This document shows, piece after piece, positions 26,371 through 38,530 of a DNA stretch of 64,000 nt. The stretch is from assembly GCA_026929865.2 (NCBI GenBank), contig CM049397.1:1116001-1180000 (forward strand), read 5' to 3'. Position 1 is the first letter of the stretch, and the number at the start of each line of letters is the position of its first letter. Position numbers and translations under genes: made by a program. The notes below the pieces were generated by a model. It made no database searches. It was not told the origin of the DNA and saw only the letters and a program-made list of their open reading frames with translations. The stretch comes from Hyperoplus lanceolatus (Eukaryota > Chordata > Actinopteri > Uranoscopiformes > Ammodytidae).

Positions 26371-27294
26371 GTTATACAGTTTTTAGACAGCTGGCTCTAA
26401 CACTTTGCTTGTTCAGCTTTGTTTCGCTCCACTACCTGTTACATTTGTTTCTTACGTTAATTATGGAAATTGATGAACCTGATGTTTGAACCGCGTTTGT
26501 AATAAATACACCAAAAGAAAAAGGCGAAGTTGGGCATTGTAATTGGCACAACAGCCAGCATACAGCGAGCGCCTCAGCTAAGTCATTAGCCACGGGACTG
26601 TCTTTATAGCCTGTGTAGCAGCTACTCACTGGGTTTAAGTTTTAAGCTTGGCCACTTACACTCCCTATAAACTGCCATGAAAATATTATACAGAAATATT
26701 TCTTCTACTTTTTTTTTTACAAACCTTGTATCCCACTTGAGCTCTGTACATACAAATCTATAATATTCATATGTATTTACAACTTTTTTTAAGAAATAAT
26801 TATTTGTGTTGCACTTAAACCTAATAACTTTTTTTATTAACGGGAGTTTTCTCACATCTTTGACGCTGAGCAGATTTTCTGTCAGGCTGAAATGTATTGC
26901 TGCTACTTCACTTGTGATGTTCCCAAAGTCAAAGTCAAGCCTCATGAAATAGTGTAATATGAATATAGAAATTATTTAATAATTTAAACTGTGATCACTT
27001 GCTGAGGAACATGGATTTGGTTAGAAATCAATCAGGTTCTTCGTCGATGAAAACTGCCTAATTTGTCTGAAGTTAAAGTATTTCACTGCCCATTTAAAAG
27101 GAGGGACAGTCTGTTTACTGCACAGGATTTAAGAACCGCTTGCCATTTTATATACAGCGAATATAATACACTGTCAGCCTGTCAGTAATTGTGTGCCGTG
27201 CCAACTCCTACTTTTGCTGCTGCTGATATGCATAACTTTTGTCCTAAATATTGCTTCTCATAGCGAAGTGTAATTGTTCTCTTGAGAAAAATGT
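26371..27294 (-). mobile_element. Harbinger-like family copy B, left portion (inverted)
   Basis: 26945-27290 matches, in complement, copy A positions 25095 back to about 23050: the GTGATCACAGTTTAAATTATT block and the CTGACAGTGT..ATATTCGCTGTATA block. It lacks the LINE and hAT found in copy A. The alignment stops abruptly at 27294 and resumes at 38163, so the 10.9-kb element between interrupts it. The far left edge is uncertain. Confidence 0.55.
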
Positions 27295-28310
27295 GAGAGA
27301 CGCCGAGATCGTTTAACGGCATGTGGCAGTACCACGGCGACCACTGACATACCATGGCTTGTGCTGGTCTGTAACGGTAGTGCCAGTCCAAACAAGGTAT
27401 TCTGCGACCGGCACGCCCCGCCTCCCCCCTATAATTTCACGACAGGTATTAACACAAATGTAAAGCTAAATATAGTTGGTCTTTATTGACACTATATCAC
27501 AACATAAAACCGTAAATAAATGGATTTATTCATGTCTCTGGTCCTTTCCGTTGTAAGGATATGTGCAATCTGTTTGTTGTTGCTTTTGAAATGACAGATG
27601 CTTTATAAAACAGTCGGACTTGCTCCGGTGACGGTAGTTAGCTTAGCCACCTGAGCAGGTTTGACTAATCGATAACAGAGATTTAGCACTATACTGCCTT
27701 GACTAGAGGCAGGTCCCTATATCTACCAGAGGGTGGCACTGTAGCCTAGGGCTAGAAATAGTGTAGCCTAGGGCTTAACTTTCAGCTTTTCCCTTAGCTC
27801 AGTGGGAAGAGAGTCCGGAAACCCTTCAGCAGACCTGTGTTCGTGTCCCACCCAGGTTGGGTCTTTGCATCTTTTGACTAGACATTCATCTATTTTTTTT
27901 ACTAATGTTTTATCAAGGTAGGCCTACAGGTTCCTATCGTTTAACACTGATTCAGTGTCATAAACCTTTTTGTACTATTTGGGTGCCATTTCCTACTGTC
28001 ACCTGCATATTTTCTACTGCGACATACCGCTTCTCCACTGACAGGCCACTTTGGTATAATGGTAGTACCTTTTCCGAAAGGCACATACCGTTCCTCCACT
28101 GACATGCCACTCATATCCTGTGGTATGTGCCGGTTCATACTGGCATAGCACTCATGATCCAGCTGCAGAATCATTTTGATAACAACAAATATACGATTGG
28201 CAATACATGATGGAAACATAAATGAACAATGTCAAAAGTGTGAAAAAAAAATTCAAGTAAAATAAGTCAGAAAAATTTGAATAAAGAAGTGTCTGAACAG
28301 ATTTGTGTGC
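27295..28310 (-). repeat. Left inverted arm of the Mutator-like element
   Basis: The complement of this segment matches 37665-38162 through GGGGGGAGGCGGGGCGTGC, GACACTATATCACAACATAA and CAAAATGATT.TGCAGCTGGATCATGAGTG. The left arm has about 510 extra bases (27640-28150), including a tRNA-like stretch, that the right arm lacks. The copy at 44159-45057 retains part of the extra segment, so the shorter right arm is probably deleted. Confidence 0.75.
27785..27865 (+). repeat. tRNA-like (pol III A/B-box) sequence
   Basis: TTAGCTCAGTGGGAAGAG resembles a tRNA A-box region and, about 50 bases on, GTGTTCGTGTCCCACCC resembles a B-box. The segment does not close a proper acceptor stem, so it is best read as a tRNA-derived or SINE-head fragment inside the transposon arm. 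Confidence 0.45.
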
Positions 28311-29450
28311 AGGTTAGAATGAGGGTTGTAGGATAGAATATGTGATGGATCCAAATGTGTGGCAACAATCACTCCAGAGTGTCCGATCAGAACACTAATG
28401 ATGTTCAGGTGAGAGAAATAAAGGATGGAGCCCAAGTTTCCGTTTAAACTCTTTAGTGAGAGCATGTGTGTGGTTTTGTATCATGGACGCACACTCCATC
28501 AGTCCGGCGGAGGAGAGAATGGAAACAAAAATGAGTTTTCCGACACATTTCACTGGCACGTTTGGGGTGCGTTCAAGGTACACTAACAGTGTAGGAAAAT
28601 CAGTACTAACATGAAAATCACTTAAACAACAAAACTACTGTAATGGGGGAAAACAGAAACCGTTTTAACACTTATCAAACAAAGTACAAAGTGCTTTACA
28701 GTAATACAATTAAGTAAAAACCACAGAGAAATTAGATACATGTTGAACTCTGGTGCTCATGTTTATTAATGTGCACTGTCACTTATACAAAAATAAATAT
28801 CAAAAAAATCTTTATAGAAGTAGGCCTATAGAATGGACAATAAAATAACCACAAACCTGATTAAAAAATTATCCACATTTAATTTTTAATTAACTTAGTT
28901 GCAATCGAAGCAGTGCAACTTAGGCATTCACTGGATCCATGTGCGCTCACGCAGACGGGGACACAGTATTTATCGGGTGTAATTACATTGACACAACAAC
29001 ACCGGCATTGGCCTACCTATTACAAGTAAGAGTATATTTGTTTTCACTTCTCGACTAAAGTAGAGGAAACTTTATGCACACAGAGAAGGTAAGAAAGAGA
29101 GAGAGAGAGAGAGCTCTGCTTCAAGCAAGGAGTAACCCTGTTTGTCCCTTGGTCAGTTGATGGGCCATTAGCACCTATGATTAGCACATGGAAATTGGCC
29201 CTGCCATAACTTCCAGCTGCTGCGACACCCGAAGTGAAGGTTTGACGACATGGCTGGTAAGTCTTTATTGTTTTACATGATTTTAAAGTATGCTATTCTT
29301 CAAAATAATAAAAGGACAAGGTTAGTACATAAATGTTTTACTTTGAAAGCCATCCCCATAATGAGCATACTATAAATCACTTTCTGAATTGCTTACTTAC
29401 TTCATGAATATATATTTTGTGTGGAATAATTAATATACTGTCATCTGTAG

Positions 29451-30061
29451 GTGTCTTTGAAAACAATTTACACCGGATCTCAGGATGAATCCCAAATTGT
29501 CAACAAAATTGGGAAAAAGTTCCCAATTACTATAAGAGACTTACAAAGTCCTCTTGATGTAATGGAGGAGACCTCGCGTATGACGCCATGGTTGACAGAC
29601 GATGTATGACAGTACTGTTTATATTAAAACAATCAATTTCTGAGCGGCACAGTTTATATAAAGTAGTTCTATGTGTATGATGAAACACATTTAATATATT
29701 TAATGTTAAAAAGTGTATACTATAACATGTTTGCTAATGATAAAAGACAGTCAGCCTTTTAATCTTTTTCCCCACTGCAAAGTCTGTGAGTTTGGGGCAC
29801 TTTGACTACATAATCTGGAGCCGGGACTGGACAAAATATGGCTATGTCCAGGACGAATCTCTGAGAAACTTGGAGGTGGGTTTTACCTTTTTTGTAAGAT
29901 ACATTATATTTACAAATTATATTTACAATTTTATGTTTTTCCATTGGCATTTAATGCTGAAATAACAATTGTCTCCACCACACTAGATTGCTGACAGAAT
30001 ATTTCTGCCAAGGATTGTGGGTCACAGGACCGCAGAAACTGGCAACCACTTCATCCTTTGG
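29451..30061 (+). CDS. Ulp1/SENP-like (C48) cysteine protease, exons with substrate-side region and catalytic His
   Basis: Three exons with GT/AG borders, all phase 0. 29451-29603 (51 codons) ends in TPWLTDD, like the conserved Trp-Leu-x-Asp entry motif of Ulp1. 29783-29875 (31 codons) includes HFDYIIWSRDWTKYG. 29987-30061 (25 codons) reads IADRIFLPRIVG and ends GNHFILW, where His is the expected catalytic residue. The family removes SUMO or related modifiers. Further 5' exons are likely; a splice-donor-ended frame at 28938-29021 and a GACATGGCTG/GTAAGT site at 29256 are candidates but unproved. The remaining catalytic exons lie beyond the DIRS insertion at 36853-37162. In plants, Ulp1 genes are known passengers of Mutator-like elements; here the host element likewise has long TIRs and a 9-bp TSD. 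Confidence 0.78.
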
Positions 30062-30665
30062 GTAGGCACAAATTAGAAAACATCAACCATCATGCAAAAT
30101 GTTGTCAAAGACATGTGGTTGAAGAGATTAATGTCATTCTTAGATAATTATGTATAAACAAGATGTGCTACTTAGGAATGTTCATGTACAATCTAAGTTT
30201 ATGGTACTTTGTAGCAACCAAATCAGAATTACACCACCACCTAGTTCATTCATTTTCCCTTGACTTACATCACAACCTCTTTGTCAGAGTTCATTCATGT
30301 TTCCCTCAGTTACGTCTCCAATCACATAAGAGTAGTATTGGAAAATGGAATAGTGATCATTTTGCCACCTGAACACATATTCAGAAGGAACAATGGAAGA
30401 CACAAACATGCCACATGTAAAATAATTTGCATGAAGTGTTATTTGACAAGAAAAAAACATATAATTTATCACTAATAACAATTATAATAACTGTATAACG
30501 TCAGACAATTTTAAGTGTAATAGATGTAAAAATGTAAATTCATCTTGCACAGGAATATGGTTCTCACTGGATTGACATGTTGCAACACAAATAATTAATA
30601 AAACATTATGTTAAGTGTGATATGATGTGTGTATATACTGTATATATACACACATTTAGCTTTAA

Positions 30666-30905
30666 AGAGGACCTATTATACTACTTTTCTGGTCTTAATT
30701 TCTTGTTTTACACTGCTATAGAGCAACCTGACACAAATCACATCACAAAAAACTATGTAGATTTTCGGGAAGCTCTTTCTCTTATTTTGGCGATCCAGCA
30801 CGTCCTGTCAACACTTGAGTGTGTGTGCTTCGGGCATCTCCGCTCCCTCAGCCTGTGCTTCGGCAATCTCCGGTCATAAAAGTCAAAAAGCATCATAGGT
30901 CCGCT
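30666..30905. mobile_element. TTAA-type MITE
   Basis: AGAGGACCTATTATAC at the left pairs with the complement of GCATCATAGGTCCGCT at the right. TTAA flanks both ends (30662-30665, 30906-30909). The TTAA target is typical of piggyBac and Kolobok elements. Non-coding, within the intron of the Ulp1-like gene. Confidence 0.7.
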
Positions 30906-31054
30906 TTAAGTGTAAGTTAAACATTCCTGCACAATATTTAAGCTTATAAGGAGACTTTGGCTGACACAGTTATCATTGTGGATACATTTGTATCCATACT
31001 CTATGTTACACAATAAAAAAACAAAATGGGTTACATGTGTTTCTTTATGCTTTG

Positions 31055-31265
31055 AACGATAGTTACGTATGTAACTACGGTTCTATGAGTTCCGGATGAC
31101 CGCCAGAGGCAGTGCTTACAGCACTGGATGTTCCATCGCGCGCATGCGCAGGTCGAGATCTTTATACCAACAAAGTCACCTGTGACACCTGGGTGACCCC
31201 GGGAATATCTATATATTCCGGAAGTCACTCGAGGGTCTGTTCCAACTGGATCTTCTCGCGGTATC
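31055..31265. repeat. DIRS terminal inverted repeat (gene-distal, 3' end)
   Basis: From AACGATAGTTACG inward it shares GACCGCCAGAGGCAGTGC and the TTATACCAACAAAGTCACCT block with the complement of 36670-36847. The outermost 30 bases, absent from the other end, correspond to the ITR extension typical of one DIRS end. Confidence 0.88.
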
Positions 31266-31288
31266 TGAGAAGTCTGATTGACAGAGAA

Positions 31289-31400
31289 CTCTGGCGGTCA
31301 TCCGGAACTCATAGAACCGTAGGTACATACGTAACTATCGTTCTATTTCGTTCCTACTGACCGCCAGAGGCGGTGCTTACAGCACTGGATGACTTATACC
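31289..31400. repeat. DIRS internal complementary region
   Basis: 31289-31342 is the complement of the left terminus (CATAGAACCGTAGGTACATACG) and 31340-31400 matches the complement of the right terminus (GTTCTATTTCGTTCCTACTG). The two meet at GTT (31340-31342), giving the circle-junction template and fixing the element edges as AAC...AAC. Confidence 0.85.
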
Positions 31401-31427
31401 AAAAAGGTCACGAAGAGTACTCACCAC

Positions 31428-33058
31428 TTAAGGGCTTGCACCCATCAACAAGACAGCCGTCGCCACCGGATGAGGAGCAGCGACATTCACTCTGTAGAAC
31501 CGCGCAAACGTACATGATGAGGACCATGTAGCTGCGGAGCAGATGTCCTGAAGAGGAACCCCCTTCAAGGCCGCCCACGATGTAGCCATACTCCTGGTAG
31601 AGTGGCACTTAACGGCCAAGGGCACAGGGAGCCCATGTGCTCTATATGCATTCAACACTAGATCCACAATCCAGTGAGAGAGTCTCTGCTTGAACAGGGC
31701 AGCCCCTTTCCTGCAGCCCCCGTAACAGACAAAGAGGTTATCTGTCTTACGTAAGCTGGTTGTCGCTTCAACATACTCCCTAAGCGCCCGCACCGGGCAC
31801 AGCGGGTCTGACACTCTTTCTGCACCCCCCAGAGAGCCTGGGGGATTGAAAGCAGCCACAAACGTTTGGGCAGGAAGGATGGATTCGGCCAGAGCACCAC
31901 TCCTGACCCATCTGCGTGCCAGCGCATACACGCCTGGCTCACTGACAAGGCATGGAGTTCACCGACCCGTTTCGCAGCCGCAATGGCGAGGAGGAAAGCC
32001 GTTTTCATAGACAGCCGCGTCAGATCTGCCTGACTTAGCGGCTCAAATGGGGGTAGACATAAGGACCTCAGAACCACCTGCAAGTCCCATGATGGTGTCC
32101 TCAGGGGTCGTGGTGGTCGAAGCCTCTGGGCCCCCTTTAGAAACTGCCTGACTAGGTACTGGGACCCTACTGTCTGGCTATCAACCCTTGCATGTGCAGC
32201 CGAGATTGCAGCCACATAAACGCGCAGGGTCGAAGCAGCCCTGTTGTTGTCCAACACAGACTGCAGAAAGTTCAGTATCACCACCACCGAGCAAGTCTCC
32301 GGGACTTTGCCCTGTGCCACGCACCACTGTGAAAACAACTTCCACCTGTTTGCATAGAGCAACCTAGTGGAGGGTGCTCTAGCACTAAAAATGGTACGGA
32401 CCACCGACTGGTCGCAAGACGTTAGCAGTGGGTCCTGGCTCTCAGGGGCCACACGCACAGCCGCAGGCGTCCCGGATTTGTGTGCCATATACGTCCGCCA
32501 ACCTGAGACAGAAGATCCTGTCTCTCTGGAAGGCGCCAAGCCTCTCCGTTGAGGAGTTTCAGCAATGCTGGGAACCACAGCCTCCCTGGCCAATGTGGGG
32601 CCACCAGAAGTAGGCTGTGACCACCACGCTGGACTCTGTCCAGTGTTGCCAGTATAAGGGGAATTGGAGGAAATGCATAGAGCAGGCTGTCTGGCCAAGC
32701 ATGAGCCAGAGCGTCCTGTCCTAAGGGGCTGGTCCTCTCCATCAAGGAGAAACAGAGGGGACCGTGGGTCGTCTCCTCGGAAGCAAAGAGATCTACCACT
32801 GCCCTGCCATACCTGTCCCAAATCATGCCTACTACCTCCGGATGGAGCATCCACTCCCCGGAGGGTGGCCCTTGGCGAGAGAGAAGGTCTGCCGCTATAT
32901 TCCGGACACCGGGAACATGGACAGCCCTCAGGCTTAGGAAATGGGGGAACGCCCATGTAAGGAGCCCCTGCGCGACCCGCAGGTTCCGCCTCATCTGGTG
33001 CCCCCCTGATGGTTGACGTGGTAGACTGTGGAAATGTTGTCTGTCCGGACGAGAACAT
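31428..33058 (-). pseudogene. DIRS tyrosine recombinase, split by a frameshift
   Basis: The frame 31658-33058 carries the N-terminal SAM-like core-binding region (TRLLYANRWKLFSQWC, STLRVYVAAISAAH) and the first catalytic Arg in AAKRVGELHALS. Near 31860 the reading moves to the frame 31428-31931, which holds the rest: LSHWIVDLVLNAY, then HSTRSMATSWA (catalytic His and second Arg) and FARFYRV (nucleophile Tyr). All four recombinase residues are still present across the break, but not in one open frame. The N-terminal part overlaps the end of the RNase H region in another frame, as usual for DIRS. Confidence 0.88.
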
Positions 33059-34256
33059 GCCGGTTTCTCAGAACTGTAAGGAAGTGCTTTAGAGCCAAGA
33101 ACACCGCAAGGAGTTCTAACACATTTATATGCTCCAGCCTCTGCTGGGAATCCCACTGGCCTCTGACAGTCCTGTGGCGCCATACTGCGCCCCAGCCAGT
33201 AAGGGAGGCGTCTGTCTCTACGACCTCCCGCCAGGAAGCCAACCTCCCTAAGGGCGCCCCCGCAATCAGGTATGCCCTCTCTCTCCAGGGTCAGAGGGCC
33301 AAAAGGCACTGCCCAGACACCCTGACCATCTTGTGTCCCTGCCACTTGGGGTCCAAGTGGAGACCATTGGCCCAGATCTGCAGAGGCCGCAACCTGAGAA
33401 GGCCTAGCGGGACCACGCTGGATGCCGCGGCCAGCATACCTATCAGTCGCAGAAAGAGGCTGTATTCCAGCAACCTCCCCCGCCTGAAGCGCTGTAGTAG
33501 CTGCAGAATGGTAGCGACGCGCTTTGGAGAGAGGCAGGCTCGCATGTCCACCGAGTCGAGCACCAGCCCCAGATAACTCACCACCCGACATGGTGTAAGG
33601 TTGCTCTTGGAAAAGTTGACCGTGAGGCCAAGCCGATCCACATGGCTGAGGAGCCTGGCTTGTCCCTGACTGCCTGCTCCCGAGTTGGGGAAATGATTAG
33701 CCAATCGTCTAGGTACGGCAATATCGTCATACCGCCGGTCTGTAATGGGGACAGGGCTGCTGCCACACACCTTGTAAATATACGTGGGGCCAGAGACAGC
33801 CCGAACGGAAGGACCTTGAATTGGTACACCTTGCCCAGAAAGGCAAAGCGGAGGAACCGCCTGTGAGGCTGTGTAATAGGGACATGAAAGTAGGCGTCTT
33901 TCAGATCTATCGACACGAACCAGTCCTCCGGAGCGATAGCCCGGAGGACATCTGCAACACGCAGCATGCGGAAGGAAAAAACCTTGAGGTACCGATTCAG
34001 CCGTCTCAAGTCCAGAATGGAGCGAAACCCGCCATCCTTCTTCGGTACCAGAAAGTAGGTTGAGTAGAACCCCTTGAGCTGTTCCTGTGGCTCTACTACC
34101 TCGATGGCACCCTTCCCCAGGAGGGTGGCCACTTCCTGGGTCAGGACCAGGGATCTGCCAGGATCTTTGACCACAGTAAGTCTGATCCCGCTGAAAGTTG
34201 GGGGCCGGCGTCGGAATTGTAGTGTGTACCTGTTGGACAGCGCGAACACCATCCAC
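32991..34256 (-). pseudogene. DIRS RT thumb and RNase H continuation frame
   Basis: In this frame, RT homology resumes after 33670 (HVDRLGLTVNFSKSNL, VVSYLGLVLDS). An in-frame stop at 33291-33293 interrupts it, after which RNase H follows: ETDASLTGWGAVW, INVLELLAVFLALKHF and VRTDNISTVYHVNHQGG, with acidic residues typical of the RNase H active site. RNase H then shifts near 33000 into the frame containing HVPGVRNIAADLLSRQG (32422-33591). Three defects therefore split a once continuous RT-RNase H. Confidence 0.85.
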
Positions 34257-35827
34257 GGGTCTGTGGTCTGTTCTTTCCAGTAGTCCAGGTGCTGCTGAGA
34301 AAAACGTCCGACGGCCGGCCCTTGAGCTTCAGTACCTACCCCCCTGCCCCTAGGGGCCTTGGGGGGGCGGCGGCTGGGCGCCGGACATCTTGGTGCCTGA
34401 AATGCCTCCCGTGGCGGCGGCGCAGTGGTACGGCGCCTGCCAACCTGCTCGGAGAAACGCTGGCCCCTCGATCGTCCAGCTGGACGTGGTTGAGGGCTAT
34501 TGGCATGGGGTACCACAGAGGCCCTTGACCTGTAATAAGGTGGCGGTGTACGCCGTAAACTCGCAAAATGCTGGCTGGCCTGGCCAGCCTGTACACTACG
34601 CTCCAGGGCCTGAAGCGCAGCTGGCCCAAACGTCTGGCCTGTCACAACCGGGAGAGACCGGAGGGTCCGCCGACACACCTCCGACAAGGGGGACTGCGCC
34701 AGCCAAACCTGGCGACGCGCCAACGTAATTGTTGACATTAATCTGCCTAGCTCCCTTGTCATAAAAGCAAACGTCTGAAGAGAAGTCTCACTTAAGGTCT
34801 GAGCTGAGGGATCAACCTCTGACCCCTGAATGGTCTGGGACAAAGCCAGAATGATATGCAAAAGCGAATTCCCGAGACGGCCCACACGGGCAGCAATGCT
34901 ATAGCTTTTGGTAAGCAGGTCGTCCATAATTCGGCACTGGGGCCGAGGGCAGCACGCATCGGCCCTCAGCGCCTCATCTGGGGAGACAACCAAGGACGCT
35001 ATCGCTGGCTCAATTGGCGCTAACCGGTCCAAGCCGTAAGCCCCAGCGTCTCTCATAGTTGCTAGGGCTCTGCTATCACTAGCGTGATGGGACAGAACCC
35101 TGGCATCCGGCCAGCACCTATGCAGCTCCGCAATGTACGGCTCAGAGGGGGGCAACGTGAAAACAGAGGGTTGAACGGCCTGCGGAAAAAATGCACTTAC
35201 CGGTGCAGATGAAACCGGAGCCTCGTCTAACCCCAGCTTTGCCAGCGCCATACGCAAGGCTGGCCTAACTGTGTCGCGGCTGGACACTGGCCCTCTAGCC
35301 GAGCTGGCCGCCGACCCCTGGGAGAAAGCCTGAGAAGCCAGGGACGCTGCTTCGTCGATCTGTTCTCCCTCCTCTGTAAAGAGACTACAGGATGCGGCCG
35401 TAGACAGCATATCATCCTCTGGATAGGAAAGTTGCGCAGCCGCGGGAACACATGCAGCGGCTGGTAAACCCTGTGGCCGTTGGAGGTTCTTCAAGAGGGC
35501 TTTGATTTGAGCCACGTCCCCAGATAGCGTGCTCACTTGGGTTGTCAAATCGTCGACCTTATGGGACTTCCCGGGGGGTCCCCCAGCTGCCGAGGAGCGC
35601 CGCTTGGCGCCACTAGGACCCACACCCGACGGGGGCAACCCTAGTCCCTCCACCTCAGCCAGCCTAGCCAGCCTTAGTGCATGAGGCATGCAACTACAAT
35701 TCATGCATGGATCATCCGACAGTGCTTCCCTCAGGTGCTCAACCCCCAGACATGCAGAGCACTGGTCATGGCCATCCTCCATGAGCAGGGAGGCCGAGCA
35801 GATGACACAATTATGGGCGCTTGACAT
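33578..35827 (-). pseudogene. DIRS gag and reverse transcriptase N-terminal part, 749 codons
   Basis: It starts MSSAHNCVICSAS at 35827, with a Cys-rich N-terminus (CxxC pairs at residues about 8-45). A Pro/Arg-rich basic region follows at about residues 430-500. Residues about 510-749 are the RT fingers and palm: LVPKKDGGFRSILDLRRLN, SIDLKDAYFHVPI, LPFGLSLAPRIFT and the catalytic YLDDWL. Gag and RT share one uninterrupted frame. The correct frame is lost after the YLDDWL motif near 33670, where homology jumps to another frame. Without the rest of RT and RNase H the product would be inactive. Confidence 0.85.
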
Positions 35828-35889
35828 AATGGCAAACTTAATTACCCTATCTCAGTAACTAATTAGCAATTAGCAAATTAATTAGTAGG

Positions 35890-36420
35890 CTATGCAGCCG
35901 GGCTCTCGGCGAGAGCACCCAACACCGGTGTGACACCCCAAAATGAACCCCTTGAAGGCGACTCTGAACCACAAGCCGCCTACTGGAGGCAAATTAACGC
36001 AGGCTTAGGCAATCGAGCTCTAGGCGAGAGCACCCGAGCATGACGCGACACCCCTACAAAAACGATAAATCAAGTACGCAACTGGCCTAGGCGACACAGC
36101 ACCCAAGCAGCAGTGCAGCAAAGCTAGCAAATACCGTGGCGGCGGCTATGCCCAAACCGCTCACTGACAATTAAATAAAAGTAAGCAACCGGCCCCGGCG
36201 AACTCAGCACCCGAGCACAGCGCAACAGCTAGCGAAAATAAATTAGAAATCACCATGGGGGCGCTAAGCCCAGCCGCTCACTGGCAACTAATCAAGTAGC
36301 AACTGGCCTAGGCGAACTCAACACCCGAGCACCGTGCACAATGTTAGAAAACAATAGTCGAGCATACAATCAGCACCGGGCTTAGCGAAAGCACACAAGC
36401 AACGGCGCGACCAAAATAAT
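35890..36420 (-). repeat. Six degenerate repeats in the DIRS leader
   Basis: The motif CTAGGCGA..(A)GCACCCGAGCA recurs about six times (near 35898, 36015, 36090, 36196, 36307 and 36378), with an interleaved CCGCTCACTGRCAA motif. The spacing alternates between about 72 and about 110 bases. They lie between the terminal repeat and the gag start codon. Function unknown. Confidence 0.6.
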
Positions 36421-36669
36421 AACACGGCGACTGTGAAAACTAGCCGCCGACTGACGAGCTCAATAATACAAGGTGGAAGGTGATAGCTACCGCGGTAGCT
36501 GGCGGCCACGCGTAGCCTTCACACTTACTCACCCCTGACCGGCCGCAGCCGAAGTAGAAACAATTGCCAGTCGCAGCCTTTGGTGGTCGACGTCAGACCG
36601 AAGCACCAACCCGTAGGTACAAGCTATTTGGTATATTCTCTCACACACGCTATGTGTGTGTCCTGCTAA

Positions 36670-36847
36670 TCCGCGAGAAGATAGAAGGAACAGATCCTCG
36701 AGTGACTTCCGGAATATATAGACATTCCCGGGGTCACCCAGGTGTCACAGGTGACTTTGTTGGTATAAAGATCTCGACCTGCGCATGCGATGGAACATCC
36801 AGTGCTGTAAGCACTGCCTCTGGCGGTCAGTAGGAACGAAATAGAAC
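36670..36847. repeat. DIRS terminal inverted repeat (gag-proximal, 5' end)
   Basis: Complement of the left repeat with few mismatches over the shared part, for example GGTGACTTTGTTGGTATAAAG and GCACTGCCTCTGGCGGTC. It ends CGAAATAGAAC. Confidence 0.88.
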
Positions 36848-36852
36848 CATAG

Positions 36853-37162
36853 GTACTTGACTTCCCAAAAAAGGAAATCAGAGTTTATGACTCTCTACAG
36901 ATGTACACCACAATACAAGATGACGACATGGCTCTTTTGAGGTTTAATATTATTACACTCAATTCAGACAATGTGTTTTAAAAAATTTACAATGTTGAGT
37001 TAAAGGAAAATATTCAATTATTGTCATAGAAAAATGACTCCTTATGGCTTCTTTTAAAGAAATGTTTTCAGGAACCAGGGAGGACTCCAGGGATGGAAAG
37101 TCAGGTTCCCAAAACAGTGGAGGCAGACGGACTTTGATAACTGTGGCATTTTTGTGTGCTCA
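36853..37162 (+). CDS. Ulp1/SENP-like (C48) cysteine protease, exons with catalytic Asp, Gln and Cys
   Basis: The exon 36853-36941 (phase 0 in, phase 2 out) reads VLDFPKKEIRVYDSLQMY, matching the strand that carries the catalytic Asp (VYDSL). The exon 37072-37162 (acceptor TTTTCAG, donor GTAAGT) reads GWKVRFPK, then QTDFDNCGIFVCS, giving the oxyanion Gln and nucleophile Cys in the D-x-CG context. With the upstream exons (29451-30061) the frame is continuous for about 167 residues and contains the whole His-Asp-Gln-Cys set. Possible later exons: 37270-37470 (AENEMVKREVSS) and 37481-37565, followed by AATAAA near 37562. The acceptor of the first exon lies 5 bp from the DIRS edge. Whether the gene was already inactive before that insertion is unknown. 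Confidence 0.78.
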
Positions 37163-37664
37163 GTAAGTAAACTTGTAAAACTGTAGTATAAACTTTCACT
37201 ACTTATAACACACACAATAAGAAAAATAAATAACTGCTTCTTATGTGACTATTAAGTTATTACCCCCCAAAAAGGCAGCAGAGAATGAGATGGTAAAACG
37301 GGAGGTCAGCAGTGAACCTTCAACCCTCGATAATTGTGGGATTCTGAGGAGGCACCATTCATCTATGATGAGTAAAGGCGTGAATATTCAGTTCAATGGG
37401 CAGCCTTATCAAACTTTTTGCTTAGATCATTTTGAATCAGTAAATTTAGACATAGTAATTGTGTTTCTCATCACCATAGAATTTCCGGCTCACAAAAGAA
37501 GAGCCAGCAGTCTGCCCGCCACATTCACCATTACCCCTGTACTCCCAACCATCCTCCAAAAATAAAGTGTCCTAAACTCCAGCCATCTCCTGTGTCCGTG
37601 TTCTGCATTTGGGTTCACTGTGAACTTTGCGGCATTAAGTTAAACTTAACCTTTCTCTATTTGA

Positions 37665-38162
37665 TTGCAATTTTACACAAATCTGTTCACACACTTCTTT
37701 TTCAATTGTTTCTGACTTATTTTACTTAAAATCTATTTTTCACACTTTTGACATTGTTAATTTATGGTTCCATCATATATTGCCAATCATTTATTTTTTG
37801 TTATCAAAATGATTATGCAGCTGGATCATGAGTGGCAAGTCCGACTGTTTTATAAAGCATCTGTCATTTCAAAAGCAACAACAAACAGCTCGCACATATC
37901 CTTACAACGGAAAGGACCAGAGACACGAATAAATCCATTTATTTACGGCGTTATGTTGTGATATAGTGTCAATAAAGACCAAATATATTTAGCTTTACAT
38001 TTATGGCAATACCTGTCGTGAAATTATAGGGGGGAGGCGGGGCGTGCTGGTGGCGTATACCATTGTTTGGACTGGCACTACCATTACAGACCGGCACAAG
38101 CCATGGTATGTCAGTGGTCGGTGTGACACTGCCACATGCCGTTAAACGATCTCGGGGCACCT
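37665..38162 (+). repeat. Right inverted arm of the Mutator-like element
   Basis: Complement of 27295-28310, missing about 510 bases between ATCATGAGTGG and CAAGTCCGACTG (near 37836). It ends at CACCT before the 9-bp duplication. Confidence 0.75.
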
Positions 38163-38530
38163 GAAAAATGTTTGTCCTGTTTTTTTCAGAATTGCTGAGG
38201 TGATTATATCAGAGTTCCGATATCATATCCCTGTTAATTCTTCTCTGTACCATACAGGCGTATTGTTCAATCAATTAATATTTATATGTTTCACTCCAGT
38301 GGGAGAAGTGGAGAAGTGGGCAGATCAAGCATTTGTTTCTCCTGTTTCCATGGTGAATCATGTTATCAGCGATCCATTGACGATGGCTTTAATGCACATG
38401 CTCAACCCAGAGTGAACACGCTCAGAGTTGATTGACCAAACGCTGATCCACTGTTCTAAAACCCAGAGTTGCTCCTCTGGGTTGAACTCAGAGTTTGTCA
38501 ACCCTTCTTGCTGAAATACGCCCCTGAAAG
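38163..38530 (-). mobile_element. Harbinger-like family copy B, terminal portion
   Basis: The complement of copy A 22640-23040: CAGAGTTCCGATATCATATCCC, CATGGTGAATCATGTTATCAGC, then the AACTCTGAGC/AACCCAGAG-rich terminus. It continues copy B after the Mutator-like insertion. Confidence 0.65.

Follow-up and report, generated by a model that had tools for sequence, protein, structure and literature searches.

A probable non-autonomous member of the Zisupton-type transposons carrying a Ulp1-type protease gene in the fish Hyperoplus lanceolatus

The window analysed here is a 64,000-nucleotide stretch of the genome of the fish Hyperoplus lanceolatus (assembly GCA_026929865.2, contig CM049397.1, positions 1,116,001 to 1,180,000 of the forward strand), which was located on contig C3 of the 806.7 Mb of genome searched. 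It holds a DNA transposon with long inverted arms, a spliced gene for a Ulp1-type protease inside it, and a retrotransposon nested in one intron of that gene (Table 1). An earlier note, made from the letters of the window, had described a DNA transposon with long inverted repeats and a Ulp1/SENP protease gene, in a genome resembling that of a fish, and the arms, the duplication and the exons were confirmed with corrections to the duplication length and one splice acceptor. The family to which the element very probably belongs, a fish Zisupton-type family, is a different one from that proposed in the note.

Table 1. Features of the element and its gene in the window (window coordinates; a dot marks features given without strand).
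Feature	Position	Strand	Basis or remark
Whole element	27295..38163	.	10,869 bp including the nested retrotransposon of ~5.8 kb; tips GAGAGACGCC ... CACCTG common to other copies
Left target-site duplication, 8 bp, AAAAATGT	27287..27294	.	identical to 38164-38171
Left terminal arm	27295..27725	+	inverted part starts at base 9 (27303), hence subterminal
Left subterminal repeat block	28014..28308	+	recurs in other arm copies; the C9 copy, which bears transposase exons, has a diverged form upstream of its exon 1
Parent gene 5' region, first exon (ATGGCTG|GTAAGT, ATG at 29250) and start of intron 1	28663..29312	+	matches to C360
Deletion joint at which intron 1 meets the final bases of a later exon; ~7.45 kb of transposase exons lost	29313..29320	+	flanks align to C360 9282 and 1828
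Ulp1 exon A (VSLKTIYTGSQ...PWLTDD)	29451..29603	+	95% DNA identity to C360 over 29313-29630; protein relatives
Ulp1 exon B (SVSLGHFDYIIW...)	29783..29875	+	protein relatives
Ulp1 exon C, catalytic His (GNHFILW)	29987..30061	+	a profile of fish relatives aligns this His with SENP1
Nested DIRS-like retrotransposon, within the C-D intron	31054..36850 (borders approximate)	-	inverted repeats, RVT_1
Ulp1 exon D, catalytic Asp (VYDSL)	36853..36941	+	protein relatives, SENP1 profile; also in the C14 and C18 copies
Ulp1 exon E, Gln and Cys (RQTDFDNCG)	37060..37162	+	protein relatives, SENP1 profile; also in the C14 and C18 copies
Last recognisable coding exon F (AAENEMVKREV...)	37275..37391	+	protein relatives; whole in the window and C14 only
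Right side: segment common to short non-autonomous copies, then right terminal arm	37398..38163	-	
Right target-site duplication, 8 bp, AAAAATGT	38164..38171	.	comparison of paired copies

The two arms of the element pair in inverted orientation over 27303-27623 and 37835-38155 (321 nt, 93% complementary) and again over 28149-28253 and 37730-37834 (105 nt, 91%). On the right the arm is compact, whereas the left-hand sequence that pairs with it is scattered across ~1 kb, in line with the arm lengths read earlier. The outermost 8 bases at either end, GAGAGACG and CAGGTGCC, differ and are not mutually inverted, and pairing starts from base 9 inward; the repeats are therefore subterminal. Searching the species' own genome with the left arm gave at least 45 matches of 84-100% identity, the window's two included (40 of 114 candidates scored). 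Ten complete copies were paired (window, L023, L025, L034, L039, L040, L043, L044, L045 and L047), all with asymmetric tips, GAGAGACG…CACCTG; the body of a copy opens with GAGAGACGCC, with A as first base in one copy and G at base 4 in another, and closes with CACCTG. Left uncounted in the duplication tally were L041, L042, L022 and L028 (damaged end), the remaining arm loci, for which the fetched stretch showed a single end, and L046, which lies ~24 kb from L047 on contig C4 with identical flank and 8-bp duplication and is evidently one insertion duplicated together with its surroundings.

An exact 8-bp duplication flanks each of the ten paired copies, and a longer exact match was found in none. 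In the window the 9-mer GAAAAATGT is present on both sides, at 27286-27294 and 38163-38171, as had been reported for a perfect 9-bp duplication. Since no exact duplication exceeds 8 bp and CACCTG closes the element in 10/10 copies, the G at 38163 is the last base of the element itself; the G at 27286 is then a chance flanking base, and the true duplication is the 8-bp AAAAATGT. The element also appears to sit inside another, older repeat, and 22724-23058 matches 38164-38473, which adjoins its right end, at 77% in inverted orientation.

The six coding exons of the protease gene, from A to F, splice in frame with GT-AG introns, and all four catalytic residues of the Ulp1/SENP (C48) set, His-Asp-Gln-Cys, are present in GNHFILW, VYDSL, RQTDFD and NCG, so that the complete set noted before holds. 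Of the exon junctions proposed then, 29603/29783, 29875/29987 and the donor at 36941 were retained, and the acceptor of the Gln/Cys exon was corrected from 37072 to 37060 because homologous proteins read LLRNVFR..GGL. The predicted protein is 49-88% identical to fish proteins P0001-P0004 (4 of 150 candidates). The Pfam C48 profile scores 17.8 bits on it, under the curated cut-off of 20.7, and a single-sequence search of solved structures returned one chance match and nothing else. Using a profile built from 12 fish relatives, the best solved-structure match was SENP1, with His, Asp, Gln and Cys aligned (E=6.7e-4). A Foldseek search with a model of the relative P0005, poor over the whole chain (mean predicted local distance difference test score, pLDDT, 49) and fair in its Ulp1 part (~residues 500-670), placed yeast Ulp1 and human SENPs at the top (E=1.8e-6). 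No transposase coding was recognised within the element, again as noted before: the full-length fish relatives P0005, P0007 and P0010 match the window's Ulp1 exons only, and the PHD-finger end of the full-length relatives has no match in the window.

The full-length relatives, eight proteins (P0005-P0012) from 6684 candidates, provided the route to the parent gene. In Pfam, P0010 (Astyanax) shows a C2H2 finger below cut-off, a CxC4 cysteine cluster (E=2.9e-15), Peptidase_C48 (Ulp1) above cut-off and a weak PHD finger, and P0007 (Archocentrus) shows CxC4 (E=3.4e-16); the cluster is described as 'associated with KDZ transposases'. The other six relatives lack CxC4, and their Ulp1 match is at most sub-cut-off (P0008). 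The three parts of a multi-exon Zisupton gene, a zinc finger, the cysteine cluster linked to KDZ and Ulp1 at the C-terminus, thus occur together in P0010, and the window copy retains the Ulp1 part alone. P0007 has at least 40 matches in the species' own genome (37 of 112 candidates scored), the best of them on contig C360, where tblastn with P0007 and P0010 traced a minus-strand gene exon by exon, degenerate in having some stops. Its exons match P0007 residues 1-331, 411-452, 458-518 and 622-788 at 47-69%, followed by Ulp1 exons A-C. Besides C360, 18 further places match P0007 around residues 573-790, and there are several such lineages in the genome.

The window is collinear with C360 in separate blocks. 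Upstream, window 28663-28757 corresponds to C360 10985-10891 (93%) and 28802-29320 to 9790-9282 (85%), the latter including the exon ATGGCTG|GTAAGT, and 28321-28472 matches weakly (70%). Downstream, 29313-29630 corresponds to 1828-1505 (95%) and 29656-30487 to 1380-571 (91%). The transposase exons of C360 sit between blocks 9790-9282 and 1828-1505, which are 7.45 kb apart on C360 yet meet in the window at 29313-29320. This makes the window element an internal-deletion derivative without the transposase exons. Smaller differences were also seen. The window has 6 bases fewer than C360 in the first exon, one small exon of C360 (the AVNFRVAQVTQD region, itself a weak match with E=0.013) is missing from the window and from P0001, and C360 is without 16 bases of exon B. 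Nonsynonymous (dN) and synonymous (dS) divergence, which rest on few differences and from which nothing is concluded, were 0.013 and 0.097 against C360, 0.043 and 0.054 against C14, and 0.007 and 0.028 against C18.

Other copies in the genome carry different parts of this gene. The exon-1 region has long matches at three places, the window, C360 and C9 (40 of 221 candidates scored), and the transposase 5' exons were found at two, C360 and C9, which are 89% alike (both candidates scored). The C9 copy combines transposase 5' exons, the exon-1 region and, directly upstream of exon 1, a diverged form of the subterminal repeat (E=7e-5); no Ulp1 exons and no arms were found in its downstream stretch. 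Exons D and E occur together at three places (window, C14 and C18) and the whole of exon F at two (window and C14), with 11/11 candidates scored. Exons D, E and F are not on C360, where the match stops 570 bases short of the contig end. The C14 copy (L039) shares these ends but is flanked by another 8-bp duplication, and so must have inserted separately; its interior has undergone a deletion of its own. The interiors of the C14 and C18 (L068) copies are reversed relative to the window's, for which recombination between the inverted arms could be the source. The C18 stretch, checked for a transposase on the same element, showed only a single terminus and, of the Ulp1 exons, D and E; a KDZ match near this copy (C18:3802077) is on the opposite strand, ~10.5 kb from the exons. 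On C17, a copy with an arm also matches window segment 28641-28757 (94%) ~1.9 kb further in; C360 has most of this segment too. As a separate observation, L040 (C9:22447600-22457500) is a 9-kb copy with intact ends and an 8-bp duplication, whose interior has frames that look Tc1/mariner-like by eye in place of the Ulp1 gene.

The middle of the window element, missed in the earlier description, is a nested retrotransposon. It is GC-rich, ~5.8 kb long, with minus-strand coding split over several frames and inverted repeats 94-98% alike, and RVT_1 was matched in the open reading frame (ORF) at 33581-35851 (E=4.6e-19). The repeats, together with the look of a tyrosine-recombinase-type frame that no profile confirmed (PF02899, E=0.16), lead us to call it DIRS-like. 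L039 represents the same site without the insert. That the insert splits an exon was considered and rejected; it is intronic, and exon D retains its AG acceptor.

Taken together, these data make it very probable that the element belongs, as a non-autonomous copy with an internal deletion, to a Zisupton-type DNA transposon family of this fish, with the ends and 8-bp duplications described above and a transposase presumably supplied in trans. The parent gene would begin at exon 1 and continue with exons of zinc-finger, SWIM-like (judged by eye), CxC4 and other kinds, closing with a Ulp1-type protease at the C-terminus that is followed in the relatives by a weak PHD finger. A single deletion would have brought intron 1 up against the tail of the exon preceding the Ulp1 part, leaving a short gene able at most to make a protease domain without transposase, and the DIRS-like retrotransposon would have entered the intron before the Asp exon later. 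Movement is proposed to be by cut-and-paste through the GAGAGACGCC...CACCTG ends, which a Zisupton-type transposase may recognise in trans, with the staggered 8-bp insertion that the duplications show.

Several observations count against this assignment. No single copy with both arms and transposase exons was met among the stretches read (C360 1-17,500 of 26,354, 15.5 kb on C9, C14 and C18), and no arms were recognisable in C360 1-17,500 or in the 15.5-kb C9 stretch. P0005 and P0007 fall short of Peptidase_C48 in Pfam, so that their tie to Ulp1 is similarity to other relatives; CxC4 was not reached in Pfam by the C360 ORF tested; and the Pfam KDZ domain (PF18758) has no match in P0005-P0012. 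KDZ itself was found at 18 places in the species' own genome (L048-L065) and in 0 of 14 control genomes, and these 18 exclude both C360 and C9:3038823. The 18 KDZ matches belong to other, more distant lineages.

The earlier note had proposed a Mutator-like element (MULE) with a captured or inherent Ulp1 gene, perhaps undescribed in vertebrates, a reading that we now regard as very improbable. Long inverted arms agree with it, and Mutator elements that carry Ulp1 are on record from plants, hydra and lancelet (PMC2836005). MULE domains (PF10551) also occur at 8 places in the species' own genome (27/27 candidates scored), as well as in 3 of 14 control genomes. The nearest of these places, on C18, is ~2 Mb from any listed arm match (arm loci compared: 40 of 114 candidates scored), and with a duplication of 8 bp rather than 9 bp in 10/10 paired copies, the support for a MULE is removed. 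In addition, the first 8 tip bases are not inverted, and the interior is collinear with the Zisupton-type gene on C360. The note had further advised looking for copies with 9-bp duplications and for an autonomous relative with a MULE transposase, and had itself named a differing duplication length as disproof; what was found instead were exact 8-bp duplications and MULE domains no closer than ~2 Mb to any arm match listed, and both the 9-bp duplication and MULE membership were rejected. Apart from this, the 8 PF10551 places, for example C5:18504434, are unlinked to the element, and one of them lies in a 430-aa open frame.

A small chance is left to an unrelated short non-autonomous family, for example one mobilised by hAT, that captured a piece of a Zisupton gene in Pack-MULE fashion. 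Exons D and E at just three places against at least 45 arm matches, and arms and transposase that are not together in any copy read, would suit such a capture, and hAT duplications are likewise ~8 bp (PMC3706591). Homology with the transposase-bearing copies, however, covers the non-coding 5' region 28663-29320 and weakly 28321-28472 (C360), and in the C9 copy reaches the subterminal repeat; moreover, two separate ends of one gene have been kept in order and orientation, as a deletion predicts. A Ginger1-type transposon, able to carry C-terminal Ulp1 and PHD domains, has next to no chance of being the right identity. Ginger elements have an integrase-type transposase and 4-bp duplications, whereas the duplication here is 8 bp, and P0005-P0012 gave no Pfam match to an integrase domain (E up to 0.1), on which ground this identity was rejected. 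What is shared with Ginger1 is the C-terminal combination of Ulp1 and PHD reported for it (PMC2836005).

The nearest described systems are Zisupton, Ulp1-carrying Mutator-like elements and Ginger1. The name Zisupton derives from the zinc finger and SUMO protease of the platyfish element, so that a vertebrate counterpart is not undescribed, and KDZ stands for Kyakuja-Dileera-Zisupton. The platyfish (Xiphophorus) element of Bohne et al. 2012 is said to have, in a testis isoform, a Ulp1 domain at the C-terminus, and its subterminal repeats to measure 99 bp; the window element shares the C-terminal Ulp1-type protease and has longer arms, of 0.3-1 kb. Like Zisupton, the window element has inverted repeats that start inside the tips, and the full-length relatives share with Zisupton a gene of several exons, with a zinc finger and the CxC4 cluster linked to KDZ. 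Unlike Zisupton, the window copy is without transposase exons and PHD end, is non-autonomous and is interrupted by a retrotransposon. Ulp1-carrying Mutator-like elements (Kaonashi and others) are alike in their long inverted arms and Ulp1 gene, and differ in 9-bp duplications and a linked MULE transposase, neither of which was found here. In the literature searched, Zisupton together with Ulp1, or Ulp1 with KDZ, was not found.

The published accounts give Zisupton 8-bp target duplications, as in the window element, and list it as a KDZ member, with 7 bp for Kyakuja (PMC12730594). Zisupton is multi-exon, was first characterised in fishes and is also found in fungi and algae, with nematode copies lacking target duplications (PMC9297572), and it was among the superfamilies then believed to be without a DDE transposase (PMC3706591). 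Four further papers are cited here only for noting Zisupton in fish or genes derived from it (PMC3424704, PMC7599744, PMC7915175, PMC4746887).

The locus is real and is a new member of a known transposon type, not an undescribed vertebrate MULE; it is thus reassigned from 'possible vertebrate MULE' to Zisupton. The element type being already described, the interest is mainly one of detail, and what is supplied for this genome are the ends, the duplication length and the low-copy gene-bearing relatives. There is a slight chance that the protease-only derivative, if still transcribed and spliced, could be a stand-alone SUMO or ubiquitin-like protease moved by its full-length relatives, in which case selection acting on the protease separately from the transposase would account for the small number of coding differences. 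The locus also shows a transposon copy whose Ulp1 part has survived loss of the transposase, and this makes the purpose of the protease testable, through comparison of expression and selection between both parts.

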